From Phytopythium helicoides (lineage: Eukaryota > Oomycota > Peronosporomycetes > Pythiales > Pythiaceae): 64,000 bases of DNA. The position numbers and the translations under genes are program-made. The notes beneath the pieces are model-generated. The model made no database searches. It saw only the letters and a program-made list of their open reading frames with translations, and was not told where the DNA came from. Below, piece by piece: positions 24,242 to 49,154 of this stretch. The DNA lies in the NCBI GenBank assembly GCA_024867545.1, contig JANFNE010000033.1, forward strand, positions 62,001 to 126,000. Direction: 5' to 3'. Every line of letters starts with the position of its first letter. Positions within the stretch are counted from its first letter, which is position 1.

Positions 24242-24689
24242 GTTGACGAGCAGAGGCGCAAATGAGTGGACATGCGGTGGGTGCACGCGGAGCACATCCA
24301 GAGTGAATGAAGGTTTGGCTGGTTCAGGGCGAGCTGCTTCTCCCCCAAGACCACTGCGGGGAACGAGGGTGGAGCCGAACGACTTCAGAAGCCTGGAGGG
24401 CTCCAGACCGATTTGCATTTGGGCTTTGTGACGTCAGGGAGGCCATGAGAAGAGCTCCATGGGGCTCGTTTGTCTCCTGTTGATGGGCTTTGAACTTGTG
24501 AGTGGATCGAAAGCGAGGTGGTCCGACCTTTGTGGCCATCGACTCTTGGCACGAGTCCCTCGTGACTCTTCAAGATACCGCGTCCTGTTGGAGATTTGGG
24601 AGCTCCCCAACAAATTCTCCATCAGCTTGTGAGCCATGGAGGCGGCTCCTGCTCGTCGTGGACGACTTTGCCGTCTTCACGGCACCTCA
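24242..24689. other. divergent intergenic region
   Basis: Shared upstream region of ankyrin copy D and the giant gene. It contains alternative in-frame upstream ATGs for both (24418 minus, 24636 plus) but no recognisable domain. Confidence 0.5.
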
Positions 24690-27600
24690 ATGTCGAGCCT
24701 TTGCCAGCTCTGGCTGCTATCCATGCTCCTTGCTGCTCTTGTGTTCTCGGTGCTGCCAGTGAATGTCGAGGCTGCAGTGACGCAGGATGAGGCGGACGAA
24801 GTGCAGGAGTGGCGCCTGGTCAACGAAGAGTTCGACTGGCAGCAGAGCGAGGAGAACAGCAGCGTGCGAATAGTGGGCAAGGGCGTGCCGGACATTGACG
24901 GCAACTTGTACTTTGCTGGCGTCAAGAGCTACGCAGGTAGGGAGGATGACGAAGGCGATCAAAACATGTTTGTAGCGAAGCTGAACGCGGACAACGCTGT
25001 CGAGTGGACTCGCGAGGTAGAAAAACTCGCTTCAAACCAATGTAAAGAGGGGGAATACTAAGGACCTGTGCGGTTTGTAGTTTGGGACGGATGAGTCCGA
25101 CGGCGCGAACTTCATAACTATTGTCAATGAGACTGTTGACTCGACGGTAGAGGGTGGCAGCGATGCGGTGGTTCAGATGCTCTACGTTGTCGGATGGACG
25201 TGGGGATACCTCGACGAAGGTGGCCACGCGCTCAACGGGTTCGGACATTTCGGTGGCCGCGACGTAGTTCTGTTTAAGATGACTTTGGACGGCGAAAAGC
25301 TGTGGCTTCGGCAGGTATCCGTTCTATTGCAGCTTGCATTAATGGTATCGTCAACTGAGGTGCGATTGTCTGTGCGCTTTGTACTTTGAAGTTTGGTACG
25401 ACTGCGAATGACTTTGGATACGGAGCGACGCTAGACGGCTCATTCGACACGATTCTGCTCACGGGTGGGTGCATCACGGATCAGATTGTCAAGATTGTCG
25501 AGGTTTCGATCGACGATGTGCTAGAGCCACGACAAGACTTCGAGTTGTATGAATCTCAGATTATGGACCCCCACGAGCGCTCAAGCTCTCGTCAACGAGA
25601 GTACCAGTTTGCAGTTAGTCTCAACTCACGTGGAGATATCCTCGACTACGCAATGGACGGTGGTGTGACTCTCACTCCACGACGAAGACGCATCAGTGAA
25701 GATGGTGTTGTGGCCGAGTACGCGGTCGTGCTCAATCGGCAACCATTGAGTGACGTTACCATCTCTGCTGAAGATGTGCGCCTACTGGATGCTAATAATG
25801 AGCCTCTGCAGCAGCTTCGGTTTGTGTCTTCTCCCACAGTGACTTTTACAAGAAACAACTGGAATCGCGAGCAAGTTATTCGAGTCACGGCGGTTGACGA
25901 CGTGATAGCAGAGAGCACTCACTACGCAGTCATTACACATACTTCTTCGAGCATGGATCCCAATTTTAATGGTTCAGCGACACCATTCCTTTACGGCAGC
26001 AACATCACGCTTCAGATCTTCGACAACGATTTAGCTGGCATTCGAATATCGCGCCGACACGTTTTTGTGGGTGAAGGTGGAGCAATCGATCGTTATGACA
26101 TTGTCCTAAGGTCCCAGCCGTGGTATCCAGTCGTGGTTCATGCTGTGCCACTTGATCCGAGCCAAACGGATGTATCTCCGTCTGTTATAGAGTTTCAGCC
26201 TTCTGATTGGAACATTTCACGGAGCATTGTTATATCGGCAGTGGATGACCATTTGTCAGAGAGTGAGTACGGCGGAGTTCACAGTGGCGGAAAAATCATC
26301 CACTACGCAGAAAGCAAAGACTCTAGATATCGCACTCGACGCCCTCTCTGTTTTGATATCCCTGTGTGCGACCCAGAAGATCAAACAGTTTGTCTGGTCG
26401 ACAGTTCGGTAGGTTCGCCTGATACACCAGTACGCGTATGTGACATCACTAACGAATGCGACTTTGCGACTGGCAATGGGGCGTGCATCTCCGTCGTCAA
26501 AGAGCTCCCGTCTGGACAAATACCTGCTCGCTTCGGAAGCGCACCATTGGATCCTTCAATTGACGCTGGAAGCGAGACTGATACGGACAATCCATTGTCG
26601 TACAGCGACCTCATCGCCATGCTTGCACAACAGCAGAACGATCGAAACCTCTTGATGTTAACAAAAGCCTCCACAGAGTTCGGCTTTGTAGATCCACTTC
26701 CAGAGCTCAAAGGTTTTATACTCAGTTTCCTAGGTCTCCTAAACATGGCACAAGTGCGTGAGCTTCGAGAGAGTCCGAGGAAAACCTTGCAAGCAGTTTG
26801 CGATGGAGTTATAAGGTTGGAAATGATGCGTTGGGCGTTTGAAGAGTGGCCAAAGGGTCACACGGCACGCATTCTTGAGGCGGTATTTCAGATGTTTCCT
26901 GACATTACTCCTAGGCATGTTTGGAATTGCGGGATGAGTTTGATTCGTCCCGGACATAGTCTAAACGTAACAATTCTTGATAATGATCCTGGTATCACAC
27001 TGTCCACCAGATCTCTAGTTGTAACAGAGCAATCAGTTTTCACAGATGAATGCGACGATAACCAAACGTGCGCGACCTATACAATAGTGCTCAATGCACC
27101 TCCGTCTAGAAGTGGCACCCAACCAGCATTATCTGAATCCTCTATATGCTCGCTAGATAATTCAAACAAGTGTGGATTCTGGGATGATTTCTCTACTTTT
27201 GCAGCGACTACTTACGACACATCGAGTCTAGATGATGAGAGTTTCGTCAGCGTTGCTATTGTCGGCAATGCACAGTTGAGCATTTCGCCAGAGGTTGTAG
27301 TTTTCTCGAAATTTGACTGGTTTGTCCCGCAAACCGTCACTGTGAGAGCGGCCGACGATAACATTGCAGAGCAAGGAGCCTACTACACGATTTCCCATCG
27401 GGTACAGAACTCAACATTCGGTTACACGGACTCAACTGCTTTTTGGTTCCAAGGTGAGTTCACGAGTGCTCAATACCATTTCCCCTTCTTCTGGGAAGCC
27501 GGCAATGTACCATACAACCATGCACCTATGGTTTTGCATTCTCCCAATCATCGATTCATCAATGTTCAAGTTGTAGATGACGATACTGCTAGCGTAGATG

Positions 27601-30600
27601 TCGTCGTTCGACAACCACTTGGCATACTATCGACCAAAGAAGCCCAGGATAATATGGACTGGGTCGGTGACTTCGCTACCTCACTAGGGTTCAGTGATGT
27701 GTCATTTTCGTCAGACTCAGCAAGTGAGTCTGGGCTTACATCAGCACTCGAAGGGGTACTCGTGTTTGCCCCCAATGCAACTACTTATATCAAGTTTCAT
27801 CTACCACAGTTCCATACGGGAGACTCCGAGCTCCAGCTATTTGGTGCCAAAGTACTTATGTATCAGACACCGTACAAAGTCTTCAACGTATCTGACAACT
27901 CCAGCGAGAGCGCTACAGCCGATACGGAAGATTCTAGCTTCGAGAAAGTCTACCAAATGCGTGTGACAATTATTGAGAATCATTGGACGCCTGAGAGTCT
28001 GCACGATAATACTGTTGAGAAGCCAGCGCCACTTTCTTTCCTGAACCAAGCATCGGCTGAAATGCTAGCTTCTATTGACAAAAGTCGCTCCATTGAAATA
28101 GATATCACAGCAATAGCTATGGACGTTCTTCCAACGCGTTTATCAGTGCTGTCTCTCCAGATTGATGTCCTTGATGGGTTGGAAAATACCACAACAACCA
28201 CAACACAACTCTGCTCATCACAGTTCGAGAGAGGTTTGCGACCTCGCCTAATTCTTCAATACCGTTTTCCCAATCGTTTTCAAGGTACCACTGTCAGTCA
28301 AAGCTCTGCGGCTACAGACCCAGCCACATCTCAGATCCTTTTCGCTGAGTTAGCGATTGATGGAATTCGAGACAATGGAATGATTTCGACTACGCAGGAG
28401 GAAGAAGACCCTTGGATTGAAGTTGAGCTACCTCGTTTAACAAAAATTGGGACTGTGGCAATATTTCTTCCAGAGCAGAGTGAGGGCGACAACGGGACTA
28501 TGTATCTAGTTACCATTGCTTCCATGACAACATTTAATTCCGAGCCACTTCAGCTGAGTGACGCCATCGAATACGGATGTCCTGATCAATGTCCCCAATG
28601 GCAAAGACTTGCTGTTCGTAGAGGTGTATTGCTTTGGAATCTTCATTCTGGGGCTCGAGCAATACGCGTCTATCGTGAAGGTTTCGGGTCTCTTCAAATT
28701 TCAGAGATTGAGGCATATGCATCCTCTGTTTCAGTGACCCCTACTGCCAGCGGAAAGGGGATCCGTTCACGACTCAAGTATGATTGGACTTCGACCCGCT
28801 CATCAGACTCATGGAGACTACTTCAAACGGTTCAAAATTCAGAGGAGGAGAATTTGGCGATACGAATGCCTACGCGTCAGAGTAGCGCAAATCCCTCTCA
28901 CGCTTTGTCTTTCCTTGCTGTTGATGGACAAAGGCAACATTCTTGGGACCCTACAATACTCAGAGATGCCAATGCTAGCGTCAGTGACACGACTGGAGTT
29001 GCAGACATAAATGCATTGGATGCTGGGAGCACTCGGACAAACATCGAAACAAATCCGTGGTGGGAAGTTGATCTCGGAGCAATACTTCCAATAAGCTCTA
29101 TTGTCTTATATCCCTATACTGGTGAGGCAGGGCGGAACTTTTGTGGCGACACATCTAGCCTTGCGGGAGACGAGCAGCAGCTCGGAGACTTATACACATA
29201 CACGCACATGGATCGATTATTGGAACTTGAGGCACCGTTCGTGCAGGAATTTGAAATCCTAGTATCAGACATGTCCCTGTATGGGAATGCCGTCGATTCT
29301 GCAAACGTAGCAGCTTCAGCAACGCTATCGTTTTCCTGCGTTAACCACACAAGCTCTGTGATGTGGCCTGATGTGTTTACTAAAGGGCGCTTTGTAACAG
29401 TTAGAAAAAAGGCCACGGGTATTCTTATGCTAAACGAGGTTGAAGTCTATCGCTGGAACCCGACAAAGACACCGCAGTATATTCTGCTTGACATGTTTGC
29501 CTCTGGCGAGAAATCGATGGCGTTGACACAGGTCCAGCTGATTCCTCCATCTGGATCGGCCTTGCTCGACGACGGAGAACCAGGATATGCGCTTCCAATA
29601 CCATATACTATCCACAGCGTGAGCTCTCAGCGCTCGGCAAGTGGAGCAGGATCGGCAGCGTCATTATCGACTGTAGATCACACGCAATGTTATGTTAGTG
29701 GCAGCGCCACATCAACGCATGAGTGGATAGTATTGCAGCTCGAAAAGCCTACTCCGATCGGTTTGATTGATATTGACACTGATGTGTCGAGGTGCGGGAA
29801 TGACGTCGAAAGCATCGACACAATCAGCGTCGGCAGTTATGGAGCTAGCATAAGTGAAAACCCAGCTGTAAATTCTGGTGTGTGTGGACTGAACGCAGCA
29901 GGGAACCAGATTGACGATAACAACGAGTGTGACCAATACATCTGTCAAGACAGCCTCTGCAACTCGCACACGATGGCACAAGGAAGTACTACACTACTAG
30001 CTATGAGAGACTTTGTTGATATTGTTGTCGTCGGAAAACTGGGTTTGACTCCTCTAATCCGACTCCCACTATCTGTAAATGAGCACCGAAGTGTAGTCAT
30101 TCGTGACAATCCAGCATTATTATGGACATTTGATGACCAGCCCATTAGTTTCGTGGATGGCCAGCGATTGGTCGGCGGTATAGCTAGGGCAACTTCAACA
30201 AGCACCATAGCGGACGTCACAGAGTCACTAGTCCTGGATATTGACGACACAAGAGAACAAACTTTTTTCTCTAACTCCGTGGTCCTGCAACCCGCGTTAG
30301 CCGCCTTCACGCTGGAGTTTTGGGTCAGAATTACAGAGCTACCAAGCGATAGATTCTCGGTAGCTACTTTGTACAGTGCACATGGTGGGGAAGTCACGTT
30401 TGGGAAAATATGGGTCGAAGGCACCACGGCAATATTTCAGTTGATTGATTGGAATAATGACAATCTTTGTGAGGTTGAAGCCCCATGGGACTCCTGGGCA
30501 CCAAAGTGGATGCACGTCAGTGCTTCTTACAACCCTAGTACATCAAGTATATCTCTGTCAATGCGATACTGGGACCATACAAACGTTGTTTTTACGTCCG

Positions 30601-33600
30601 CGACTGTGCGATGCGCACTCACTATGGTGGCGATGCCCTACAAGAGCATACAATTTGGAAAGTCTTCTGGATCTGAAACAATTGATGGGTTTCAAGGCAA
30701 TTTGGCAAGTGTGGCATGGTATACTAGTGAGCTATCGGCGCGTGTGCTGCTCGACCATTTCCACGACTTCTTTGATGGAGCTATCATGGAAACGTCAAGC
30801 TCGCATAACGTTTACTCGATTCAGCTTGGATCGCGACCGGTCTCCACTGTGACGATCGATGTAATTTCAGAGGACGCGTGCTATATATTTAATGTATGTA
30901 ACACATCTGTATACCCGGCGATTGTAACGTTTACCCCCGAGAACTGGGAGCATCCTGCAAATGTCCGAGTATTGGCGACAGATGATGATTTGTTTGAAGG
31001 ATTGCATTCGTCCAACCTGCTCCATTCAGCCTCAACGTCCACAACGTTCCAGCTCGTGTCCTCTGCTAGTACGACAACACTCCATGATGGCAATAGCAAT
31101 GCTGCAACAGTTTTCAGTGTCCAGTTGATGGCATTTCTGACAGAATTCTATAGCGACTTGGTGCTCAAATGTTTATACATCAGCGATCACGTAGCCTTGG
31201 GAGACCAGCAGCAAGAACTTGACGCGTATCACAAAAATTGGTCACTACAGCATATTCAACACGAAGTTGTTGCTTCGGAGTTATTCAATGCTTCGCTAAT
31301 AATTCAGTCTACCCTTGTTTCGATTATTGACTTCACTGTTCCTGGAATTGAGTTTTCAACAAGCTCCTTGATTGTCTCAGAAGATGGAAAAGGCAATGAC
31401 TACCAAGTTGTGCTACTTTCAGAGCCAACACAAATCGTGGCAGTTATTTTAGATAGTGAGACGGATTGTTATCGGGAGTGCTTTCCGGATTCTGTGTGTC
31501 CCGCAATCGAGGGGAGCAGAGAGTGTGGAATCGGACAGAACAATAAACTGTGTAATGTTTCACTGACTCCTGAGGTGCTATACTTTTCAGGATCTAATTG
31601 GAGCATCCCACAGACGGTTCGAGTTGTTGCAATCGATGATATGCTAGATGAAGCAGACTTGCACTCGACAACTATCAAGGCTACATCGATCAGTCTCGAC
31701 CCCGTCTATCATAATCTTGATCTACCAGAAATTGCAGTATTTATCGAAGACAATGATGTAACAGACATCTCCTACTCGACAAAAAATGTCAAGCTATCTG
31801 AGAGTACCACTGCTCGTACCAATGGAACGCTTGCCAAAGCGCTTGACTTCTACACACATACAAACTACTCTCTCTCACTACTTACAGAGCCATGGGCGAA
31901 TGTTACTATTGCAATGAGCAACGAAGTCAACAAATCGTGCTATCGAGCGTGTGGATATCCTTTTGACGAAGATCGTTGTGGACTACCGCGTCAACAAAGT
32001 GTGAGTCTCGTTAAGCTCGGTACCAATTCGTCATTAGAAGAACATGCAATCACACTCACAATTCCTCGAGTGACCGAGGTACAACGAATTCAAACGAGCT
32101 GTGATCACGTCGATCAAATCTTTCGCCTTGAGCTAGCTGGAGGCTACGCTGAAGAGATCCAGGCAATTACATTCTCGTTTAATACAGAGTTTAAACGTAC
32201 CTACAGGACGAGTCGAGAGATTGATGCTGCAATCTCGTACGGACGCACGTTTCGGCTCGGTTTTACTGATCGAAATGGGAACTCTCCTCCACTCGATGGG
32301 TTTGCGTCTGCTGATGCGGTGGCTTTGGCAATTAATTCACTGCTGGGGGCTGGACAGTTCGTGCGTGTGACACAAGTTATCATGTATGAGCAGTCCGTTA
32401 TTCGGTGGACAGTTACGTTCACCAGGCTGATCGCCTCTGATCCTGTGTTCCCTCTATTGACAGTAGCAGTGACAACAGCATTTCAGGGCACACTTACAAG
32501 TAGTCGTCTTCAGGCCGCTGCAGCACCTAGTGGGACATTTGAGCTTCGCTATGGATCTTCAGATGCATCCAATGTTGGTTTAGTGGCTCCTGTAAGCGCG
32601 TCAGCTTCGGATCTCAACTCCCGTCTAAGCAATATTGATGGAGTATTCGACTCCTCAGTCTCAAGATCAATATTGAGCAACAGCTATGGCACTGCGTTTG
32701 TGATCACATTCAAGAGTGTTGCAGCGTACTTTCAGCTAGAATCGAACACTTCAGGAATAATAACTGCACCTAACGCGGCCTCTCCGGTATCGGTTAGTAT
32801 TATTCAGACACAACCTCCGGCATCTCTTGATGGCAGTTTTGTGGTTGAGTACATTAGCTCGTTTACTTCACTCAAGATTGTTAACAAGACCAATCCCATT
32901 CCGTGGAATGCTTCGGCTGCCTTTGTAGCATCTGAGGTGTCCGAGATGACTGGCCTTGGCCGAGTAAAGGTAACCAGTCAGCAACTCACACCTGAGGGTG
33001 CTCGAGCATGGATCGTAGAGTTTGCAAACAATAATGGTAACTTACCAACCATGCGGATTCGATCATCAACTTTGTTAGGGCCGTCGGCACGAGTTTCTAT
33101 CCAAACTGTGCGAGATGGTGAATCCCTAGGTGGATTTTATGTCATTCAAATGGGTGGAGAGTATAAACGCATTGATGCAACCACTAAACAAGTGTACACA
33201 GAGCTTGTTGCTCCGAAGAGCACCGCATCTTTGGTATACAACGCGTCAGCTGCAAATGTTCAAAAAGCGCTCTTAGATTTGGAGGTCACTGGTGAAACGA
33301 AAGTTACACGGCAAGATATTGACTGCGACGCGTTTGGGATCTGCAACGGCTACACGTGGTCTATCAGCTACGTGAATAGTCCGGGTAATCTTCCTCCAAT
33401 CAATGTGGAAAGCAGCATCACTGGTCGAGACGCGATTCTTACAGCAAGAACAATTGCAAATGGCACCTTCCTTGGTGGAATCTTCAGGCTTACTCTAGAA
33501 CTGCCTGATATTGATACGAACGAAGTTTTTACTGGCAGAACGTGGTGGCTGCCAGTCAATGTAAGTGCGATCGGGATGGATGAGGCACTTGAAGCATTCT

Positions 33601-36600
33601 CTTTTGTGCGCTCAAACCGCGAAGCAGAATACGACCCAGAAACTAGAGGCTGGCGTGGTATCAAATTTGACAAGGGAGTGCGCGTCTACCGTGAAGGTCC
33701 TTTCCTCGATGGAGGATATACGTGGCGTCTTGAGTGGGCGTTGGAAGACTATATTCGATTTGAGGATCTTCGCATATCGATTGATACTAGTCTAGTGACT
33801 CAAGAGACGGATCGCTTAAGTGTAGAGAGTGAATTCGCTGATGATGGTTCCGCGCGGTGTGATGCAGTCCCAAATGCCCACTTTGTAGCAAGCTCCGAAG
33901 AAGGCTCAAGCGGTTATTGTGAATATGACATTGTCAATGTGACCATCCAAGAGCGGTTTCTCTGCAACTACACGATCGAAAACCCTTGGATTGTTTTCAC
34001 CCCTCGTGATTGGTGCCTCCCACAGTCGGTAGAACTCAGTGTAGTAGATGACTGGGTCGATGAGCAGACCATTCAGAATGGCAACGTTACGTATTCGAAC
34101 GTGACGCACACCATGTTTAGCGACGATTTGCTCTACGTGAATTTTCCACCAGATCCAGTTGAGGTTGCCGCAGTTAGTGACGACGTGTCAAAAGTCCTAG
34201 TCTCAAAGAGGTTGCTTGAAGTAAGCGAAGACGGAACTCTTGTGGCAAACTATACGCTTCAGTTAAACTCAGAACCTCTTTATGACGTAAAAGTTGTTGT
34301 GTTGCCCTGGCTTAACAATAACCAGACATTATGCTACCGATTTGGATTATGCAACCTCACAATTCCTGTAGACGAGTACCTGTTTACTCCTAGTAACTGG
34401 AACGTGCCACAGCAAGTAATCGTGTTTGCGACTGACGATGACTTGGACGAATACGACGTGCATTCGACAGGAATATCACATGTTTCATATAGCGATGATA
34501 TCAAGTACAACGAGATTGCTATTCCCAAAATTGACGTGCGTGTTATTGACAATGACATGTCGGCACTACTCGTGTTAAAAACCCAGGTCAATGTCACTGA
34601 GGGTGGAGCCTACGACGAGTATTCAATTGTTTTAGCAACTGAACCATTCGCAAAAGTTACGTTGAGCATAAAAAACGTGGGTACCAAAGGCAATCTTGTT
34701 GTGCCAAGCCCAGCTCAGCTCGTATTTACCTGGCTCAATTGGAATCAAAGCCAAACTGTGCGGGTTACTGCGTTCGACGACCGCACAGAAGATCCTATGT
34801 CATCCTCGAGCTTGCTTGTACACACAATTACCTCTAATGATCTTATTTACGTCAAACTTCGAAATTTAGCTTCAGTCACAGCTTTCATCACTGATAACGA
34901 TCACTCCGGAATTGAGCTGTCTCGTCGAACATTCTCAGTTCCGGAGAGTAACTCATCCGTATTGAGCTACCGTATCCGACTGACTTCCGAGCCATGGTTT
35001 CCTGTTGTTTTCATCCCCAACGCAAACAACGGATGCTATCAGCGGTTTCTGTCAGCACCAGATATCTGTAATGTATCTATGATCACAAACCGCGTTTATT
35101 TTGGTGCAAGTAACTGGAGTAACTGGGTTGACGTAAACTTTTTAGCCGTTGACGATTGGCTCGTGGAGGCGAGTGTCCATGATGCATTGATCACGCACTC
35201 AACTCTCAGCAACGATCCTTTGTACAACGTTGCAAGTTACTCTAATCGGGGAGGAGATATTGTTGTCTCCATCGCTGATAACGATATTTCTTTTGTTAAC
35301 ATAGTGCTTCAATTACCTGGAGGAAATCGTCGGTCTTTGCTTACTGTCGCAGAAGGTGGCTTCAATGACTCTTATCGGATATCACTGGCGTCAGAGCCTT
35401 ACCAAGAAGTTCGAGTAAATTTGATACCTTCAATCCAAACCGTAACGAATATTGATACAAACGCGATCACATTAGCCCCTCAGATCGGGGTAAATTTTGG
35501 CGCCAGCACATCAATAGGAGATCCAGCGACGAGTGTTCGTAGCGTTCAACTCATATTCAACTGCTTAGACTGGATGCGCGAACGAGTTATTACCGTAATG
35601 GCTATTGATGATAAGGTTCCAGAAGTTGCAACACAGTATACATTGATCCAGCATTCTGTCACAAGCAATGATGCTAACTATAATATCTCCAACTCAACTT
35701 TGGGTATTGTGAGTGTCAACGTTTCCATTTCAGATCGGGAAATTATCTCACCTCCCGTTCCCATCGCAGCTGTCCTCGACAACTCAGGATCAAAAATTGA
35801 TGTTGCCTTCGACTCAACTGTCTACCATGCTGCTACAATGAATTATTCGATTACCTCTACCTTCAACTCTACAACCCGAATAGTTTCATACGTTGTCCGT
35901 TTAAAAAGCTTCGCTTGTAGCCTCGTATTTGACTTTTCTGCATCGTCTTACTCGCTCGGAACTGGAGCCACATGTGTTTGGATCGACTTCAAGACTCTCC
36001 GTTTGCAACTTGGATCGGGTCCGTCCATATCTCCAAAGGATAACCTTGTACTGAATTCATGCAAGTCCTTTCTGAATCAAATTTGCCAGACCGACAATGT
36101 GTTACGAGCACGGTACACTAGCCGAGCATATTCCCAAGGATCAGTAGGAGTGAGTGCTCCAACAAGCAGAATCGTCCCAGTTCCCATTTTGATGGCTCCT
36201 GACGAAGTAGGCAACTGCGGGTCATGGACAATTGATGCAACTTTATCGACAGGAGGTGGAGGCCGTGCGTTCACAAGCGCGAATTGGCTCGCTCTTCCCA
36301 TATCGCTACTGGACGTCGGATCCCTTTCAACCAACTCAGCTACTTTGCAAGCGATTGCGACATCGTACACACGCCTTAGTTCCTTGTGTGAAAAATATGC
36401 TACTGACTGGAGGACTGGAGTGTCATCTGGAATGCTCGTACCGCTGTCCGAGATTGCAGCGAGTGGGGTATCCATGCTTTCGACCATGGCGCAACTCCGG
36501 TCCGCGTGCTATATGCGCTCTAATGCACTTAATACGACTGAGACCCGATCATTGATACTCACTGTCAACAGCTCTCTAATTGAGGCAGGCACTACATACG

Positions 36601-39600
36601 TTGTTGGCTTGGGATTGGCAAATGCATTTGGAGAGCAGGCTGTACAGGTAAAGCGCATTGCTGTACTCTCTACGGTTGCACCTGTAGTATACGTAGTTGG
36701 AGACAGCTTTCTTAGTATTACAAGAACCAGCGATCCTCTCGTGCTACAAGTTGGCGCCACATCCACTTGCTCTTCGATGGATATGTCTACATTAAAATTT
36801 CGGTGGCTGTCTTCGAGCAAGCCTTCTGCTGGTGGAGCCGTCCGAACTGAGACTCTTACTGCGAGCAATACTGCAAAAGATCCGAAAACGTTTCGTTTGG
36901 TGAGAAGTATTTTGGAAGCCAACCGCCAGTACACATTTCGAGCAGAGGCGTATTTTCCTGACTCCAGCACTGACGCTGTTTCATCGGCATCTGTTGTTGT
37001 CAATGTTGATGCAAGTAATCCTGTTGTGTCGATATCGGGTGGCTCGCGATCAGTTGGAGTGAAGGAGTATCTGACACTGATTGGTAGCGCCGTCGATCCA
37101 GACAACTCAGCGGTGCCATTTCAGTATCAGTGGGTTTGCTCAGATATCACAATCGTCACTGCTCCAGTCGCCTGTTTAAACGCGCAGACGAATGCTACAC
37201 TAGATTTAAGTGCTATGCAAGGACTCAACTTCACACTTGCTCCATTCCTCCTTGCTTCAAATCGCACATTGCAATTTTCATTTACTGCCAGTAAAGCAGG
37301 AAGCTCAGCAACCGCCTCAACGATAGTCTGGACTGTGGCTATGAGTGGACCAACGGTTGCAATTACAACAGCCACAACAAGAATCAATCCGTCATCAACC
37401 TTGATGCTGGCAGCAAATGTGACATCTGAGTATCCATACACAATGAGATGGATTCAATATCAAGGAGATCTCAATATGTCGTCGTCGAGCGATGTCAATA
37501 GTGCTTTTTCATTGCCATTGACTAGCTCATCGAACTCAATCGTAAAGAACAGCTTGACTCCAGGATTAACCTATGATTTCCGTTTGGTTGCCACTGACAT
37601 CAACAATAACACAGGTTTTAGTTCGATTGTTGTCAACGTGAACACCCCGCCGACTTCAGGGACGTTAACAGTATTGCCTCGATCTGGATATGCTATTTCC
37701 GATAAATTCAGCTTGACGTGCGCACAATGGACTGATGATGCATCTGATCTACCTCTAACTTACTCGTTTGCATCTATTCCGACGAATCGTTTCGAAGCCA
37801 TTCTGGAGCAATCTTCTGATGCAGCTTCTTTGGCGGCAATTCTGGCAAAACAGACTTCTCCTTTGGTACCACCTCAGTCATCCCCGTCGGCAGCAATCAG
37901 CCTACTCCCTCCGGCACAGACGCCTGATAGCGAGAACGTGACGATCGTGGCGTTTATTACCGATTCACTTGGAGCTACCGCGGTTGCATATGATGAGGTA
38001 GAGATAATTCTACCTGCACTTGCCAAATCACAGCCAATTGCCTTTGTTTCAAGCATGTTTGACCCCTCTGCTTTGAGCAATGCTGACGGGTCGCAGAAAG
38101 TCCAGCAAGCTCTTGCAGCTGCAATGGTCATGCAATCAGCTTTCACTACATCCTCTAGCAGTAGCTGTGGAGAGTCATCCACGGCAAGCGCATGCTCTTC
38201 GCACGGGCTTTGTGACGCAAGCACGGGGAAATGCATTTGCGAAAAGGACTATCTGGGGCCTAACTGCGAATTCGAAGTTGAGCCTGTCCGGGCCATTAAT
38301 ATGGCAATTCTAGACACAGTGGCTTCCTCAGTGCTGGTGATCGATCCCACAACGTCTGCACTTTCTCAACAAGCCTTGGTTGCAAACACAATGCTGCAAG
38401 CTACACCAACTGCATTCGGAGATGAGGAATTGGTGACAGTCACATCGCTTACGGGTGATATTACAGGGAGTGCCTTTAGTTTGTCTGACACTCAAGGTTT
38501 CGTTGACTCTGCAGCAGGCACTGTAGTGTCAGTCATATCTAGTGTAGTGTCGGTTGGCTCGGTGACTAGCACTACATCTGAAGCTAATACTACATCCCGA
38601 CGTCGATTGTCAGCGGCTGAGACGTCATGTGGATCGACAAGTCCGGACAGTGCAGCGAAGCAAGCATCATACCAGAGCACTATTCAAAGCCTCCAATCGA
38701 TATCTGCACTTGCAAGCCAGAGTTTGCTCAAGGGGGAACCAGCTTCTCTCATTAGCTCTGACTATGTTGGCGTTTATTCGTCAACAGGTGACAAGCTTCG
38801 AACAGCTGATGCCGGCGGACTTGAAGTGAATCTCACTGACTTGGCACTGGAATGCCTGTCTTCCGACCTGTTTGTGAACGCTTTTTCGATGAAAACACCT
38901 ACCCACTCATCATGCTCTCTTTTCGATGCAAAGCCGTTGTCGAGATCGACAGTCGTAACAGTTCACTCTCAAAAAGCGTTCAATTCAGCAAAATTAACTA
39001 GCAGCAATGGCCGAGTTGCCTTACAATACCTTGACACGAGCAGCAATTGCGTAAAGAGAGTTATCGCTGCAAGCACAACTACACGAAGGCTTCAAGCCAG
39101 TACAGAAACTTCGACATTGTCTTGGCAGCCCTTGCTAGTCGCAAAAATCCCACACGAGCGTTCATTATCGTCCGTAGAGAAGCGTAACTTCACGACCGCC
39201 TGTCGAGTGTGGAATAGTGACTTCAACGAGTGGAGCTCCGAGATTTGCTTTAAAGACGAGACATTGAGCACGTTTGATGCTACGGTTTGCTATTGCAACG
39301 CCATCGGGAAGCTTGAGATCTTAGTAACCCTTGAGGAGACTCTAGACTTTTACGCAGTATCCAAGAATTTGTACCGCGATGATCCCGTATCCATGATACC
39401 ATCTTTCGCTATCATAGTTTTGGTCGTTGTTGGTGCGCTTGCTGGTCGCGCGGGTCAACGTTGGGATGGGCAAGGGGTTCAGAGAATGAAAGAGCTCGCT
39501 GTTAAAAAACTGAGTCGTGCGAAATGGACAGAACTGGAGTCCCGAACACAAAGTGCCCTTGTGTTTGAGGACTTCGAGACATACTGCGCTCGCAAGAAAC

Positions 39601-42600
39601 TTGAAAACACACAAGAAACAGGAATGGAGAAGACAGCAGTGACAGAGGTGACGACGGTGGCCCCATCGATATGGGTCAGATCGGGGCTAGCACCTTTAGA
39701 ACTGAGTAGCGCAACGACTGTTCCAGTTGCAGAAGCAGTCACTGATGCGTCCAAAATTGACCCTGAACTAGAGCTCCCTGATGAATCCCGTATCTTATTC
39801 GATTCTTCAAGTCTAGCTGGCCATCAATATGCACACTTAATGCTTTTATTTCGCTTATCGAATTTTGCGCTATCGGTGATCGGCTTAGTACTTTTATTCG
39901 TGGGTATCGACTTTGCATTCGTTCTTGGAAACACTACGGCAGAGTTATTGCTTTACGTTTACGGAAAGAATTTGGGCATTACTCTAGCGGTCGTCGGCGG
40001 TATTCTTATTGTAACAGGCAGTGTTGGTCAAGCAGTGGCTAGAAAGGATGGAACCAATCGAGCCCGAACCACGTACACATTTTGGCTATCACTGTTGCTA
40101 ATAGTGCAGCTAATTTTCGTCGCAGGGGCAAGCAATTACCTAGACAGCTTTCGTGATTTACCTAAGAGCATTTTTGGTACCCTGAAAAGAACGTGGGACG
40201 CAATTCCAAGAGCTATTCGAAATGATATCCAGAATATGTACGGATGCTGTGGGTTTGGGTCAGTTGATGAGGAGAGTTCATGCCCTGAAGAAGCCTTCGA
40301 AGTTTATCCACCACGAGCTTGTTTCATGGTGCTAGAAGTAAAAGCTCAGGCGATGTTCACCAGATCTTTTGCCTACCTCGAGTGGGTTTTTCTTGTGGAG
40401 ATCATATCCATTGCTATGGCGAATGTTTTGGTCAAGTGGCGAGAAATACGGCTGCTCCAGCTCGCAGGAGAGCCCGCGTCATCCGCGTCTGGAGCAAGAT
40501 CCGAAGACCGTGCAATGCTGAGCTCCCAAACGAATGTGGTCCTTCTAGCATCTCTACCTCCTGTGTACTACGTTTTCGCTTGCGTTACAGCAATCGCCTT
40601 GTTTTACGGTATAGACTTGCTCATTCCGTTGAACTTTGTGTCGAGCGAGATTGTAGCGCGGTTATTTGGACTTGAACTTGGTGCATTGCTCGTCCTTGGC
40701 GCAGTTTTTCATCTATTGATTTTAGCCAAGGGAGTTTATGCAGTACAGGCACGAGATGCTCGGGCTCTATTGTGGTTCATTGGAATCTACATTGGCTTTC
40801 TCTTCCCATGCCTTGCCACATTACAGTATTTTTCCAGTTTAGAACGTCATTTCCAACTAAACCCTGCGATCACACTTGCCATACACAATAAATTCTTGGC
40901 CATCCCACGGTCACCACTTGTCAAGCTGGAAACCTCGATGCAATGTTGTGGGTTCGTTGCAAACGCTCAAGGTACTTGCACTTTATCTATCAATCCCCTA
41001 CCAACATGTCAGGTTGGGATTGAGCATGCGCTATTGCACGGAGTATCACTTCTAAACCGACGTCTGGGGATCTTTGTGATAGTAGAGATAATTGTTATCG
41101 GTATTTCTGCTGTGCTTTGGTTCAAAATTCGGAGATTTTCTGTCCGGCCTGTTGTTGCACCAGAACCGTCAGCTCTCGAGCTCTCGCGACGGTTTGCCCC
41201 AATGACAAGAGAGGCAACATACTGGACTTTTGCTGCAAAAGGTTGCAGATATTCGATGGTGCTTATGAACTTAGTAGGGCTTATCATTGGATTCTTCATC
41301 GTCCTGGTTGGAATTGATGCGCTCACGAAGCTAAATGTTCTTCAAATCTCGTACCTTTTGATTGCATTCGATCGGCATGTGGGTATATACGTTACAGCTT
41401 TCGGTGGAGCAGTCGAAGCGTTCTCATGTGTTGGTTTACTCTCAGCTCTGTTGCGATCGAAAAAATTGCTATGGGTCTATGCTTGGGTTGCTTTAGCTCT
41501 TTTCGCAGCCTGTTTTGGCGGTCTTGGTGCTGTATACCGATCCAAATTGCTTTTGACGAGCAAAACCAAGGCTGCTCATTATTTCCTAGAGCAGATTTGG
41601 ACTGGTGCAGGCCCTGAAGTGAAGCAGTTCACACAAAACATGTTTGCATGTTGTGGATTCGATCGTATCACAGCTGCAAATGGGACAATTTCGTTCACAC
41701 ACCCAGCTGAATTTGAGTCATGGGAGCAATCGAAAGCCACAACAACCATCCGCACCTACTCAGCCACAGTGCAGAAGGATGGCGGTGAGCTTTCGACTAT
41801 TTTACCATCATCATGGATATCCCGGTCGCTCCAGGAAACAACCACGAAAGTAGTGCGATCCTTGCTCTGCCCAGAGAATGCCGATGACGGCTGCTCCGGT
41901 CCAGTACTCAAACATCTCCTCAAAATATCTGACTACGCAGTAGTTGCGCTCTTGGTCGTTGCGACGTTTGCTGTACTTACAGCGCTTTGTGCGTTCGTTG
42001 TGCTTTTACAAGTGAAATGTGTGAATACTGAAGCGAGGATCTCACATTCGGTCCGTTGGCGTCTCAAGCTTGTGCGCGTTGTGATTATGATTGTGAGTTT
42101 TGCATGCTGTTTTTCAGCTTTGACTGGTGTTTATATCGGAGTCGACATCACTGCGCAAACCGCGCTATTTAGTTCCCCGCTACTTCAGTTGCTGTTTTCT
42201 CCATCAGTTGGTGTGGCGCTCATAGCGTTTGCAAGCTTCAACTTAGCACTCAACGTGTATGTGGTTCAAGGGGCCATCAATTTCACCGTTCATCGCATCT
42301 TCATGAATGGAGTCGGGCGTGCGTTGCTGGTTTTTTCCTTGTGGATTGGTGTAGGGCTTACTGGCTATCTATCGCGATTCTCCGCATCTAGCAAGTGGAG
42401 AGAACAACTTGCCGACTACCTAGACTACCGCTGGAACACACTGTCGCCCTCAACACAGCACTCGATCGGTGTTACTTATAGCTGTTGTGGTTTTAACGAT
42501 CCAACGTTAGTGACAGGGCGAGGCGTTGTATTTGACCGGGCGCCTGTGGGCTTTGCATGCTCACTTGCAAATTCTCGCGGTTGCCGTCGAATCTTGATGG

Positions 42601-45600
42601 ATCAGGTCGGAGGCTCTTTCGGCTGGATGTTTCCGTATTTCCTCGGTATCGCCCTAGTTGAAACTTTTGCCGTAATTCTTGCAACAGCAATGGTGCGAGA
42701 GCTAATGCCACTGAAGCCGGAAGAATGGTTCCGTATCTCAAGCAGGATACACTACGCCGTCGGCAAGTTTCGTAGCGAGGCTCGTAAGACTCACATGGTC
42801 GTGTCAGTGTACTCGACATTTGATCCAAAGCTGACTCGAGTTCAGCGCGTTGTTTGCGTTCTAGCTGCGCTCACGACGACCCTTGCCATCTATACAGGAT
42901 ACTTTGCTACTCAAGGATGCTCTCGAACAGCGTTGAAAACGTGTGAGCAGCCATCGATCTGGGCGGTTCTTGGAATGGGCTTTTTGTACGGAGGTTGCGC
43001 TGGATACGCCGCGCAAACATTATGCCGTTCACTGTTTGAGCTTGTGCGGAATCGAAGTGATGATGAAACTTTAGAGACGACTGTTGCCCGACAACGCAAA
43101 GAGCGAGTGTTGCTTTTTCGCAACTTCTTCAAGCGTCGAGGTCTCAATGTCCAGTCGGCAACAGCCCACCCAAACGGAGATGCGGTTGAACCGGACGGAG
43201 AGCGTAAGAAGATCAGCCTTGGACGCGAGGTAGCGTCCACCATCGAAATCTCGCAGGCAACAACTGAGGAGCGCTGGTATAACTGGATTGTACGCTTTCT
43301 TTTTTCGCTCTTTCAACTGGGAGCACTTGTGCAGTTCGTCGTTGGTTGTGGTGTCGCGACACTAATGGTTCTTGTCATCCTTGGGTACAATGACACCTTG
43401 TACAATGTCCGTGTCGACCGGGGTCCACGAGAGTTGGTAGTCCTCGGCCTCACGATGGGACTTACGTCTGTGATCGGATGGGTTGCTGCCGACCAGCGCG
43501 GGCGTCGGTTCCGCACAAGCTGCACAGCGTTCATCGCAACTGCAGTGGCTTGCATCTTACTCGTCGTAGTCACTCTCATCGGGATCTACATGCTTTACCA
43601 AACCCTGGACGATGTACCTTCCGAAGCTGAGTTGTCGGACCAGAACTGGACAATTCGAAATACTGGCTTTAGCATCGTTCAGAGGCTAGAGCAAGCTTGG
43701 CACGCTGATTCCTCCAACTCTCTGCGCAACTCGGCGCAGCAGCGACTGCACTGCTGTGGATTTAGAAACTCCAGCGACTACGCGTACCGACCATGCCCGT
43801 CTGGAGGCGTTGTCCAAGTTGAATATCAAGCGGTACTTGTCAACGGCTCAATCGTGACAAAAACAAAGGATGAGGAACTAGACCTCGATGGCTGTCTTCC
43901 TTTGATGCTCGATCAATTCGAGCATACCGCGAATGGAATAGCTTACTTCTCTATTGTCCTTTGCACTTTACAGATGTTAATGGCTGTCAGCGCAGTTTTC
44001 CTCGCGCAAGATTTGATGGCGTCGCGTGACGCAAAGTTGAAGTTGCGTGTGCCATCGAAGATATTGCGTGATGTCAAGGCCAAACCAGATATTCACCACA
44101 CTTTCGAGAAGGTCGTGGGCCTCAAAATCGCTGCACCAGCACGCGGAAAAATTCTGTCTAGAATGCTTGCATCCAGTCTCGACAGCGTAGCTCCGCGAGT
44201 CGCTTCCGAGCTGGCCACCGTGCCACTACCTCCTCCACTAAGCGATGTACACGAGGATGAGTCAGTTGTGCGCGGGGTTAGCGCCACACAAATTCAATCG
44301 TCTTCAGGACCCAGATCGGAATCAACACCGAAGTCACTTCTAGTACCCACATTTGCACGAAGGCAAGGTGTATCAGGTTTTAGTGATGGTGACGACGAAG
44401 TTAAGCGCGTCCCGTATCCTTCCTCTGTGGTCTACGTCATATTTGCGATAACAGGCGCGTGGATTGTTGGGTTGGGGTATGCTATAGTTATTAGCTCCAC
44501 CAAGTTGGGATCGATTACTGCTTGGTATTGTTTACTTTCATGGGGTGTCGGTATCTTCTTCCAGTGGCTAATTGTTGAGCCTGGGGTGATCTTCTCCCTC
44601 ATCATCGTGACATCTCTTCGCGATTGGTGGGCAACTACCCTGGTAGCCCATTACTTGCGCCGTGGCCGAGCTGTCTTGAGGATTCAACCTGACGCAGCCA
44701 CATTAACAGCCCGATACTACGCCTCATTGAGCCTGTACGAGAGAATCCGGTACAATGCCGCAGTGCGTATCCAACGCCGCTTGATGACGCTCATAACACG
44801 ACAGAGGTTTTTGCAAAAGCGTCGAGAGCTCAAACAGCAACAACATAAACAAGTAGCTGAGCAGCGGCGAGCGATGCTGCGTAAAACCATCGAGCATTTC
44901 ACAGAAGAGGAGGTGACGGCTTTCAGCATCATATTCCGGGACGCCGACACAGCCCAACTCGGTCTAGTACCGTACACAATCATCTCCCATTCGATTTATC
45001 AGCTCGGAGTCAATGTACCGTCGTCCGTTGTCCAGCAAGCGCTGACTGAGTTCGACCCTGCCTACGCAGATCTGGTTGACTTCGAGCACTTTTTGTACGG
45101 AATGCACTGCGCTCGCGTCCACCATCAACGAGAGCAGTCTGTAAAGGTGGAAGAGCAGCGCGACATCGTCACTACGGAAGAGATCGTGAGTTCGTCTCTG
45201 CGTTATGGACCCACTGCAGACCCTCGCGCAAAGATAATTGTGAAGCGACAAAACCTGCTTCGCGAACTGAAAGAAAAGCGCGACTCGCTCACTTTCAAGC
45301 TCATGGGTAAAGTCGGGAAACTGCCTCCACTTCGGCATCAACGCAGCGCCAAAAGCGTGACCGCATCCGCACCCGACACATCCCTTGATGAAGATAATGC
45401 CGATGATATCAAACCTGTCGGAACGTACGTACTCATGCAGAACCGGAAACTTTCTCCCACAAAGCGTGCCCTGGAAGTGATCTTGAAGAAAAAGCATCGC
45501 GACGATAAACAGTCAAGCAGTGTTGTTGGAGCCCCTTTGTCTACTATCCGTGAAGCTGGTGCAAGTGCTCCTTCATCTCCAAGGAAGAAAGCAAAAGCAA

Positions 45601-46280
45601 TGATGGATCAGCTCAAAAATCGAACGCCGCGAGGAGTATCCAGGGAGCGTCCACGATCAGGAAAATCTGCCCAAGAGTCTGACATCGTGGAGGATAAGTC
45701 CCATTCAACTCAGGAGCCTTCTTCAACGCAGGAGACTGAAGTGTCGACTTTTTCTGTCAAGGACGATGTGGTATCACCGCTGAATGACACCATTCAGACT
45801 ACCCCAGCGATCCGCGGGTTGGTCGCGTTGCGTTCAGACTCAACTCCCGACCCTCATTCAGAACCACCGCAGCCTGACGTGACGGTCATCACTGGTCCTG
45901 GAAGTAAGGACGGCGCAAAGCCGATGGGGACGTTCATTCTTGGCGGACAGCATTTGCAATCTGGAAAGGATCGCATTCTTGAGAACCGTCTTAAGAAACA
46001 AGCAAGTGGAACTATTCAGAAGCGCGTGCTTGGTGAGGCTCCACACATGTCATCAAAAGTCCAAGAGGTCGAGTCAACCCCTTCCAAAGGGTCCCAAGGA
46101 GTTGATGATCTCGAAGGGGAAGAAGACAAAAGTACCGAAGAAACTAGCACAATGCAGGCAGCCACTGCGCCAGCAAAGTCGCCTGAGAAGATTGCAGCCC
46201 CTTCCGCGAAGAACAACTTGGAGAAGGCGCTGAAGAAGCAGCTTGGGAAAAAAGCTTCAGCCACTTCCACGAAAATGTGA
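24690..46280 (+). CDS. giant polycystin-1-like receptor with five tetraspanin-like units (three exons)
   Basis: join(24690..25016, 25081..25314, 25392..46280), about 7,149 residues. A signal peptide (MSSLCQLWLLS start) precedes SBBP-like beta-propeller repeats to about residue 215. Then come Calx-beta-like repeats, many closing with a DND motif (about 284-925, 2170-2310, 3004-3637); a DNRLRE-like part (920-1144); discoidin F5/8C-like domains (1157-1297, 1340-1540); a LamG-like domain (1757-1987); several 100-residue repeats with an NASAA core (2400-2987); REJ/PKD-like region (3644-4411); an EGF module (4439-4484) and a GAIN/GPS-like region to 4844 with the CxxW..W..C..C.C pattern. About 25 helices follow, with CCG motifs at bases 40245, 40944, 41649, 42482 and 43752, each within a four-helix tetraspanin-like unit. 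After the helices at 6530-6597, which resemble a polycystin segment, come an IQ motif (6642-6667), an EF-hand-like pair (6690-6760) and a basic, Ser-rich tail. It is probably a surface adhesion or mechanosensory protein (inference). Confidence 0.85.
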
Positions 46281-46700: not shown

Positions 46701-49154
46701 ATGCGGTATCGCTCGCTGAGAGCGGTTGAGCTGTTTACAGCTGCAATATTGTCTGCTCTTTTCACCGTTACTGGCGCTGCAACTTCTTCCTGGACGACGT
46801 GCGGCCGAGCTCTTCTCAAAGATGGCAGCGCATTTTTCATTCGTGGTGTCAACTACTCGCCAACTCCGATTGGGCTGAGCGCAGGAGTTGATTTTCTCCT
46901 ACGTCCGGAGCTTTGGCAACGAGATCTCCCGCTTCTTCGGAGTATGAACGCAAACGCAATCAAGGTATATTACTACGACCCATCGGCTGGCAGCAAACAC
47001 GACGTATTCCTGGATGCAGCTTACAACAATGGTGTGAATCCCATATATACTGTCTTCATGGTGTGGATCCCACCATACCTGATGGAAGATTGGGTCCCCA
47101 TCGACGATAGCGTCTTTCTTGGTGTTGTTGACCGCTTTCGGCTAATGACACGCCAGACAGCAATCCATCCCGGTACAATGGGGTACTCGATCGGTGGAGA
47201 GACGAACTTCCAGCCCGCAATCCAGAACGCTCTTTATTGGCAAAAGTTCAACGCAATCGCATCCGCAATCCGCAGTGAAATGGCCTCACTCGGTGCGCAA
47301 AAGATTCTTACCACCACATATATCGATGATGGCGGAACCACCAACTACCTTGGAGAGAGCTTCAACGCAGATGTGGATATCTGGGGCACAGATGTGTACC
47401 GTGGCACTATCACCGAGGTCGTACTGCCTGCGTATCGAGCAGTACCTGGAGGAAAGCCGCTCATTTTCGCAGAGTACGGGATGTCATATGCCTCCAACTA
47501 TGCAGCAGCCACGGATTCAGAGGCCCAGCAGATCAGTGAGCAACTGGCAAGTTACGCTGCAGCGCTTGAGGCAAATTTTCTCGGCCAAGATGCTGTTGGT
47601 GAGGCCATTTCGGCAGGTGGTTTTTTCTTTGCTTTCTCTGACGAGTGGTGGAAAGATGGCAACTGGTGGAATCATGACTTTGGGTCAGCTCCAAACCCTC
47701 ACTACGTGCTTGGTATCAATTCGGAGGAGTATTATGGACTGTTTTCCGTCACCAAGAACGCTGACACCACCCAGTCCGACGTATTGATCGCCAGACCTAT
47801 CGTGTCGTTGTTGACAAACCTGTGGAGTCAACCAATCGGTGGGTACAGCATTCCAGGGTGCAGCGCAGTAGCATCGTCTCCGAGCGTGACACCGATTGAA
47901 GCACCGGCTGAATCAAGTTCGATGCCAAGCACGGCCACCCCTGCTCCTTCGTCAACAAATACTAGCACGCTCTCCTCAGCATCCCCGGCGCCATCTACAC
48001 AGACTCCAACAGCGCCATCGATAGTTTCACCGTCACCAAGTGCATCTAGTGCAAACGTCTCGAGTGGTTCAGTTGACGCGCAGGGATCTAGCTCGGGAAA
48101 CGCATCCACAACAGAGATGGAAGTGTCTCCATCGGTCGCAATTACTGCAAGCTGCTTCGTATCCCGAAACGAACAAACCCTCGGCATTGCTGCTTTTGCC
48201 GACCCAACCTGTACTTCCACGCCATCCGCTTCAAACATGACTGGATGCCAGAAAAATGGGTGCAGGTTCTGCCAAATGTTCTCTTCCACACAGAGCGCTG
48301 TTTTCCAACTGTGTCCGTCGCTCGCGGTAATAACTTCTGCCAGGCTTAGTGCCAGAAACGTTAGCACAGGTGCATCAGCCTTAAACTCGACTAGAGCGGC
48401 AGAGTGCGCGGCGGACACACTCTTATGCTCTTCGGGACTTCGTGTAGCTCGCGATCCGAGGGCCAACTGTTCGTTCATCGCTTGCCCCCAAGTCACTTCG
48501 GACAGTGTGGATATTCAATGCGATACAGGGGCGGGGAATCTCCGACTTGGGCTCAGCATGTATTACGACCACAGCTGCGCGATCAGCGGTCGAGAAGTTG
48601 GCTGCGACACGGGTCGTCCGGGGTGCAGGTACTGCCGCGACTTGACCTGGAACAGCATGTCTGGCACCGACACCGGCGGCTACCCGCCGTGCCCAACGGC
48701 AGTCGTCGCTTCCAGCTCGAGTCAAAGCTCCGCGAATTCCTCTTCCTCCTCGGCGCCGTGCGTCGTGTCAATCGGCAACGCGAACGCGGGCATCAGCATG
48801 CTGCAGGACGGCGCGTGCCTATCCTCTACGGGTGGCGTGGGCTGCGCGGCCGACCAGCCGGGCTGCCGCTACTGCCAGCTGCGCCTCACGTGGCAGAGCC
48901 AGCACCTGCCGTCGTGCTCACCCGCGCCACCCGCGCCCGCGTCCGCGTCCGCCTCGGCGACCACCGCCGATCAGCAGTTGCGTGGCTCGCCGCCGTCCAC
49001 CGGCGCGCAGGCGCTGATCGGCTGCGCTGTCGTCGCGGCGCTCGTCATCGCGTCCGTCGCCGCCGCGCTCCTGGCGCGCTCGCACCGCAAGCGCCTGCGC
49101 CGCCGCCTGCGCGCCGACGCCGCCGCGCTCGCTCGCCCCAGCTCCATCCTCTAG
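46701..49154 (+). CDS. GH72-like beta-1,3-glucanosyltransferase with cysteine-rich repeats and a membrane anchor
   Basis: 817 residues, no intron. Signal peptide 1-27. Residues about 30-380 form a TIM-barrel enzyme resembling GH72 (GAS/GEL) glucan-remodelling enzymes: FFIRGVNYSP start, acid E167 in GGETN and nucleophile E258 in FAEYG. Such enzymes cut and rejoin beta-1,3-glucan, a main oomycete wall polymer. A Ser/Thr/Pro-rich linker of about 90 residues follows, then three related cysteine-rich modules (bases 48151-48318, 48511-48690, 48756-48915), each with a GCR(F/Y)C core, perhaps carbohydrate-binding. A membrane helix near 778-797 and a short Arg-rich cytosolic tail replace the GPI anchor common in fungi. 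GC content rises sharply over the last 600 bases. Confidence 0.82.
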   Translation: MRYRSLRAVELFTAAILSALFTVTGAATSSWTTCGRALLKDGSAFFIRGVNYSPTPIGLSAGVDFLLRPELWQRDLPLLRSMNANAIKVYYYDPSAGSKHDVFLDAAYNNGVNPIYTVFMVWIPPYLMEDWVPIDDSVFLGVVDRFRLMTRQTAIHPGTMGYSIGGETNFQPAIQNALYWQKFNAIASAIRSEMASLGAQKILTTTYIDDGGTTNYLGESFNADVDIWGTDVYRGTITEVVLPAYRAVPGGKPLIFAEYGMSYASNYAAATDSEAQQISEQLASYAAALEANFLGQDAVGEAISAGGFFFAFSDEWWKDGNWWNHDFGSAPNPHYVLGINSEEYYGLFSVTKNADTTQSDVLIARPIVSLLTNLWSQPIGGYSIPGCSAVASSPSVTPIEAPAESSSMPSTATPAPSSTNTSTLSSASPAPSTQTPTAPSIVSPSPSASSANVSSGSVDAQGSSSGNASTTEMEVSPSVAITASCFVSRNEQTLGIAAFADPTCTSTPSASNMTGCQKNGCRFCQMFSSTQSAVFQLCPSLAVITSARLSARNVSTGASALNSTRAAECAADTLLCSSGLRVARDPRANCSFIACPQVTSDSVDIQCDTGAGNLRLGLSMYYDHSCAISGREVGCDTGRPGCRYCRDLTWNSMSGTDTGGYPPCPTAVVASSSSQSSANSSSSSAPCVVSIGNANAGISMLQDGACLSSTGGVGCAADQPGCRYCQLRLTWQSQHLPSCSPAPPAPASASASATTADQQLRGSPPSTGAQALIGCAVVAALVIASVAAALLARSHRKRLRRRLRADAAALARPSSIL

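Follow-up and report, generated by a model that had tools for sequence, protein, structure and literature searches.

The 64,000-nucleotide stretch of Phytopythium helicoides DNA analysed here (the window; contig JANFNE010000033.1, positions 62,001 to 126,000, forward strand) contains at 24690-46280 of the plus strand a gene whose product we read, with a probability of about 0.5, as a giant oomycete surface receptor related to polycystin-1. With 7,149 amino acids and about 25 transmembrane (TM) helices, it would be an adhesion or force receptor that builds its own membrane patch. The reading as a single polycystin-1-like chain with five tetraspanin units is supported by the sequence. The protein combines two known families, is conserved in oomycetes and is unstudied as far as our searches reach.

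The gene consists of three exons. Exon 1 (24690-25016) encodes a hydrophobic N-terminus resembling a signal peptide by eye and the beginning of the outer part; it is followed by exon 2 (25081-25314) and by exon 3 (25392-46280), which encodes the remainder of the protein including the stop codon. The upstream exons were placed by tblastn with relatives as queries, exon 1 being reached by five of the six relatives used. Both introns, 25017-25080 (64 bases) and 25315-25391 (77 bases), have GT-AG ends. The spliced product of 7,149 amino acids plus stop agrees in coordinates and length with an earlier annotation made from the letters of the window (the initial annotation). The long frame 25386-46280 comprises 6,964 codons without a stop, and each of the five other frames contains 200 to 407 stops. 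Residue numbers given below refer to P0001, the protein of the frame from 25386; adding 185 yields the numbering of the full protein.

Three database searches (19, 7, and 25 matches) returned 35 distinct relatives, several of which are alternative models of one species. The names found were Pythium brassicae, Globisporangium, Lagenidium, Phytophthora, Nothophytophthora, Saprolegnia, Achlya, and Aphanomyces; several matches were nameless. No non-oomycete name was among the matches of these searches, which were length-filtered and required shared five-residue words. Along the whole chain the P. infestans protein is 45% identical, and the proteins of S. diclina and A. euteiches are about 30% identical. 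For 28 relatives with a complete or near-complete membrane part, belonging to several orders, gene models likewise predict a single chain in which the parts are ordered alike, and these sequences together with the window protein make up an alignment of 29 rows. Among the rows kept, part of tetraspanin unit 1 is missing in P0012, and the outer part is shorter in P0011 and P0025. Profiles were built from subsets of the sequences: A1, A2, A3, and A8 from 7, 6, 7, and 10 of 29 sequences, A9 from 9 of 15, A4 from 15 of 16, A5 from 11 of 21, and A6 from 7 plus the piece of the C5 gene described below.

We considered whether neighbouring genes for an REJ/GPS receptor and for tetraspanins could have been merged by an assembly or gene-model error. 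Seven tetraspanin matches are indeed present elsewhere in the genome, and seven of the 35 relatives were dropped from the alignment as partial or aberrant models: P0014 and P0035 (partial; five units and one extra CCG motif), P0019 and P0032 (three CCG motifs each), P0026 and P0033 (four each), and P0036 (one). P0031, from the species of P0032 and P0033, has all five units. However, the single frame passes through all five units without a stop, and the layout recurs in the 28 relatives, which makes such an artefact highly improbable.

The initial annotation had taken five units with a CCG-containing loop for tetraspanins, and this was borne out by Pfam together with profile comparison. The Tetraspanin family matches the receptor frame with E 9.4e-35 in four stretches. 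Taken unit by unit, PF00335 is found in unit 1 (39828-40475, CCG at 40245; E 1.9e-12), unit 3 (41208-42041, CCG at 41649; E 1.1e-12), and unit 5 (43278-44030, CCG at 43752; E 2.3e-15), all of which pass the cut-off. Unit 4 (42042-42755, CCG at 42483) stays under it with E 0.0028 and was assigned a tetraspanin fold by fold comparison. Unit 2 (40518-41171, CCG at 40944) has no Pfam match; in three of five relatives this unit gives PF00335 matches at 1.1e-5 to 1.3e-3, all under the cut-off, and in the other two none. Profile comparison joins all five units, unit 2 being linked to units 1, 3, and 4. Each unit of the window protein has four helices by hydropathy, and the CCG motif plus two further cysteines of the large loop are present in all five units in 29 of 29 rows. 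These features are shared with known tetraspanins (CD9, CD53, CD81, and peripherin-2 as well as PsTET1 and PsTET3 of Phytophthora sojae). In contrast to these separate small proteins, all five units sit in one receptor chain. A study of P. sojae vesicles describes separate TET proteins (PMC10423219, as far as its text was available), and a search of its main text for the term REJ gave no match.

Helices of the polycystin-1 type lie between and around these units. Between units 4 and 5, two helices carrying an FTR.QR motif form TM2-TM3 (42753-43070), the more polycystin-like pair, which the initial annotation had overlooked. With a TM2-TM3 profile of seven sequences, only polycystin-1 chains were matched in the PDB at E up to 10 (best 0.13), and a profile of fifteen sequences again found polycystin-1 only (0.32). 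When the corresponding piece of a second gene of the same genome was added, polycystin-1 was matched with E 7.3e-4 over positions 4-99 of 105 and was the sole protein matched. This second gene, on contig C5, was located through its REJ domain (157 bits) and has a GPS of 39 bits. It shows GPS, TM1, TM2-3, and TM4-5 in the order of the receptor, TM1 and TM5 being placed by eye. The blocks of the window family align with it in order, with scores of 50.9 for GPS, 44.6 for TM2-3, and 39.4 for TM4-5; the maxima of 30 shuffles each were 23.8, 14.5, and 22.9, and wrong block pairs were below 1%. The contig has no tetraspanin match. Consequently, we read the core of the receptor as TM1 (39387-39455, by hydropathy, with a helix by eye at the same place of the C5 gene), units 1-4, TM2-TM3, unit 5, and TM4-TM5 (44397-44660), and the C5 gene as this core without the inserts.

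Unlike the receptor, the C5 gene, at about 848-855 kb of its contig, has an intact CECTHLT site and another tail. An apparent frame change inside its TM4-5 region, followed by a cysteine-rich stretch, may be an assembly error. In the short outer loop between TM2 and TM3 of the receptor, 29 of 29 rows have two cysteines (P0001 residues 5845 and 5853), which are absent from the aligned C5 piece and perhaps form a disulphide.

Several points weigh against the reading as a polycystin-1-related force receptor. As given above, the match of the window family to polycystin-1 is weak if the C5 piece is left out (E 0.13 and 0.32). The matches to the C5 gene cover 42 columns each for GPS and TM2-3 and 50 for TM4-5, not whole pairs, and the signal is therefore carried by TM2 and TM4. 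TM3 lies under the hydropathy threshold and was placed by eye; a helix is found there in a model of low confidence (mean predicted local distance difference test 51). Neither a profile spanning unit 4 to TM5 nor the C5 frame by itself matched polycystin-1, and the TM4-TM5 profile alone found no polycystin-1 chain in the PDB. The helices at 44420-44630, which the initial annotation had compared to a polycystin membrane segment, do fall into core TM4-TM5, and TM4 matches the C5 gene, but their likeness to polycystin-1 itself was not recovered. Finally, adhesion and force sensing are deduced from the domain types alone.

Counting from P0001 residue 4668 on, 24 hydropathy peaks together with TM3 give a model of 25 helices with the N-terminus outside. 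The density of lysine and arginine beside the helices fits this model, being 0.165-0.222 on the inside and 0.024-0.091 on the outside in 29 of 29 rows. The model inserts units 1-4 between TM1 and TM2 and unit 5 between TM3 and TM4, with both ends of each unit staying inside. The units add even numbers of helices in cytosolic loops, and therefore the orientation of the core is unchanged. In the model the 20 loop cysteines and the GAIN domain are predicted outside and the tail inside.

Unlike polycystin-1, the receptor has neither a PLAT domain nor the terminal six-helix channel. No PLAT was found by Pfam at E up to 1, where a strongly diverged copy could escape a sequence search; the TM1-TM2 loop holds units 1-4. 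No PKD_channel domain was matched in the receptor open reading frame. The receptor could accordingly be a channel partner which, having no pore helices of its own, assembles with polycystin-2-type channels and recruits their subunits through its tetraspanins; core helices of the polycystin-1 type are present and the channel is absent, as this proposal would have it. Polycystin-1, however, joins the channel tetramer via its last six helices, the part missing here, so that assembly would need other surfaces. Possible channels are at hand: other contigs of the genome carry 13 matches to PKD_channel with E <= 0.001, and the accessible part of an RNA-seq study reports two sporangia-induced polycystin 2 genes in Phytophthora infestans (PMC5322657). 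On balance we regard a role as channel partner as doubtful.

The outer part of the receptor combines adhesion modules with a REJ and a GAIN domain. The discoidin and REJ domains of the initial annotation were confirmed by Pfam: two discoidin-like F5/8 type C domains (28353-28517, PF22633, and 28971-29126, PF00754) match with E 2.7e-10 and 4.2e-7, each above its cut-off, and the REJ domain (36780-38120) with E 2.6e-44. For its LamG and EGF domains matches exist, but both are under the cut-off (LamG_3, PF13385, 30297-30740, E 5.5e-4; EGF-like, 38184-38270, best E 7.7e-5, slightly under). Calx-beta, also named there, is not matched by Pfam at E up to 1. Nevertheless, training a profile on six Calx-beta-like repeats revealed ten repeats in the window protein, some of them partial, and most relatives whose outer part is full have 10 to 12. 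They are situated at 25653-26381 (repeats 1 and 2), 27216-27431 (a partial repeat), 30759-31760 (two repeats, 30759-31097 and 31341-31760), and 33834-35735 (five repeats). A profile of nine repeats, without the partial one at 27216-27431, was compared with the PDB; the six top matches were sodium/calcium exchanger chains with E 0.03 to 0.34, followed by a viral glycoprotein with 0.53. Since the best matches are exchanger chains at such values, the identity of the repeats as Calx-beta is likely but not strictly proven. In the N-terminal region, at 24900-25500 of the plus strand, an FGT..D.(A/G) pattern is repeated that is tentatively reminiscent of beta-propeller (SBBP) repeats.

The strong REJ domain beside a GAIN domain raises the question of a mating or gamete-recognition receptor, as this is the arrangement of egg-jelly receptors; examples of receptors of this kind are the REJ proteins of sea urchin sperm and mammalian PKDREJ. 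On the other hand, a REJ domain is also found outside gamete proteins, in polycystin-1, and the discoidin and Calx-beta-like repeats are modules used in adhesion generally. A function in mating is thus quite unlikely.

The GPS had been proposed in the initial annotation as well. It has no Pfam match, but the region that ends in the GPS-like stretch is a GAIN domain according to a structure model and the alignment (38295-39374), of which the GPS forms a part. Together with REJ, a GAIN/GPS region before TM1 is shared with the polycystin-1 family including the REJ proteins. The GPS-like end at about 39201-39335 has four invariant cysteines. Self-cleaving GPS motifs read HL-T/S; in the receptor this motif occurs in 0 of 29 rows, and the position of the nucleophile is never T or S. 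The modelled GAIN domain is therefore without self-cleavage residues, a further difference from polycystin-1. Unlike in the adhesion G protein-coupled receptors (BAI2, BAI3, and latrophilins), no seven-helix family was called by Pfam after the GAIN domain.

For the cytoplasmic tail an IQ/EF-hand composition had been suggested. The EF-hand fold could be recovered, as troponin C (with the best E, 3.1e-5) and calmodulin were found with a tail profile among the best 60 of 254 matches at E up to 10. The pair is situated at 44871-45131. EF-hand loops bind calcium through ligands at positions 1, 3, 5, and 12, and in the window protein, as judged by eye, none of positions 3, 5, and 12 holds an acidic ligand in either loop. 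For this reason the pair probably does not bind calcium. The IQ motif (44757-44825) is partial and was seen by eye; no Pfam IQ match was obtained.

A further possibility is that the protein belongs to the surface of the zoospore or flagellum, for instance as a sensor or an anchoring protein in the flagellar membrane. In animals, polycystins are located in cilia (PMC9829181, in the part available). No downy mildew or white rust was among the names shown in the searches for relatives, which gave one name per cluster and were not exhaustive, and several downy mildews have lost zoospores (PMC3471859, likewise in part). However, zoospore-making downy mildews and white rusts did not appear either, and 'polycyst' and 'PKD' are without a match in the main text of a flagellar proteome paper. 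We therefore consider this location unlikely; a flagellar or mastigoneme role, about which the initial annotation had speculated, found no support in this analysis.

The initial annotation knew of no described protein with this combination. For the literature this holds, in that no description of an REJ/GPS/tetraspanin combination was found, by title or opening of the abstract, among the publications listed from a collection that mostly excludes subscription journals. The protein is, however, not unique to this genome, and its relatives are already deposited under generic labels ('REJ domain-containing', 'PKD/REJ-like', 'EGF-like domain-containing', 'transmembrane', 'uncharacterized', or 'hypothetical' protein). 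Oomycete polycystin-ryanodine receptor (PKDRR) channels likewise belong to the circle of polycystin proteins. They are described as TRP/PKD-type channels with no GPS motif reported in the part of the paper at hand (PMC7399828), and 'REJ' was not matched in its main text or in that of any other paper checked for the term, the RNA-seq study (PMC5322657) included.

The receptor gene is flanked upstream by an ankyrin-repeat protein of 825 amino acids on the opposite strand (21941-24418, minus) and downstream by a THH1/TOM1-3 domain protein (PF06454; 49294-53712, plus). Between the latter and the receptor a glucanosyltransferase (GH72) match barely above the cut-off is found at 46701-49154 (plus). 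In the Nothophytophthora models P0014 and P0035 the receptor continues in frame into a protein 62% identical to the THH1/TOM1-3 neighbour; these are probably run-on gene models that reveal a conserved neighbourhood.

Taken as an adhesion or force receptor, the protein would bind wall, matrix, or another cell with its Calx-beta-like, discoidin, LamG-like, and REJ domains. Because the GAIN domain appears unable to cleave, we propose that force would be passed on rather than a tethered agonist released. Five tetraspanins in cis would form a membrane platform of fixed stoichiometry, keeping partner channels or signalling proteins by the core, and the tail would relay the state of the receptor without binding calcium itself. 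Tentatively, the protein may even stand for a receptor class of its own: a receptor of the polycystin-1 type which has lost cleavage and channel and uses its own tetraspanin array as output stage, such that a pull on the outer part changes the platform within one molecule.

A common view is that tetraspanins act by collecting receptors into loose webs, the composition of which is difficult to establish. In this protein, five of them are part of one receptor, and their number and order are preserved in relatives ranging from Pythium and Phytophthora on the one side to Saprolegnia and Aphanomyces on the other; as the units are fixed in one chain, the role of tetraspanins for a receptor becomes directly testable. 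The receptor also suggests that core helices of the polycystin-1 type can exist without PLAT, channel, and cleavage, which bears on the ancestral signalling unit of polycystin-1.
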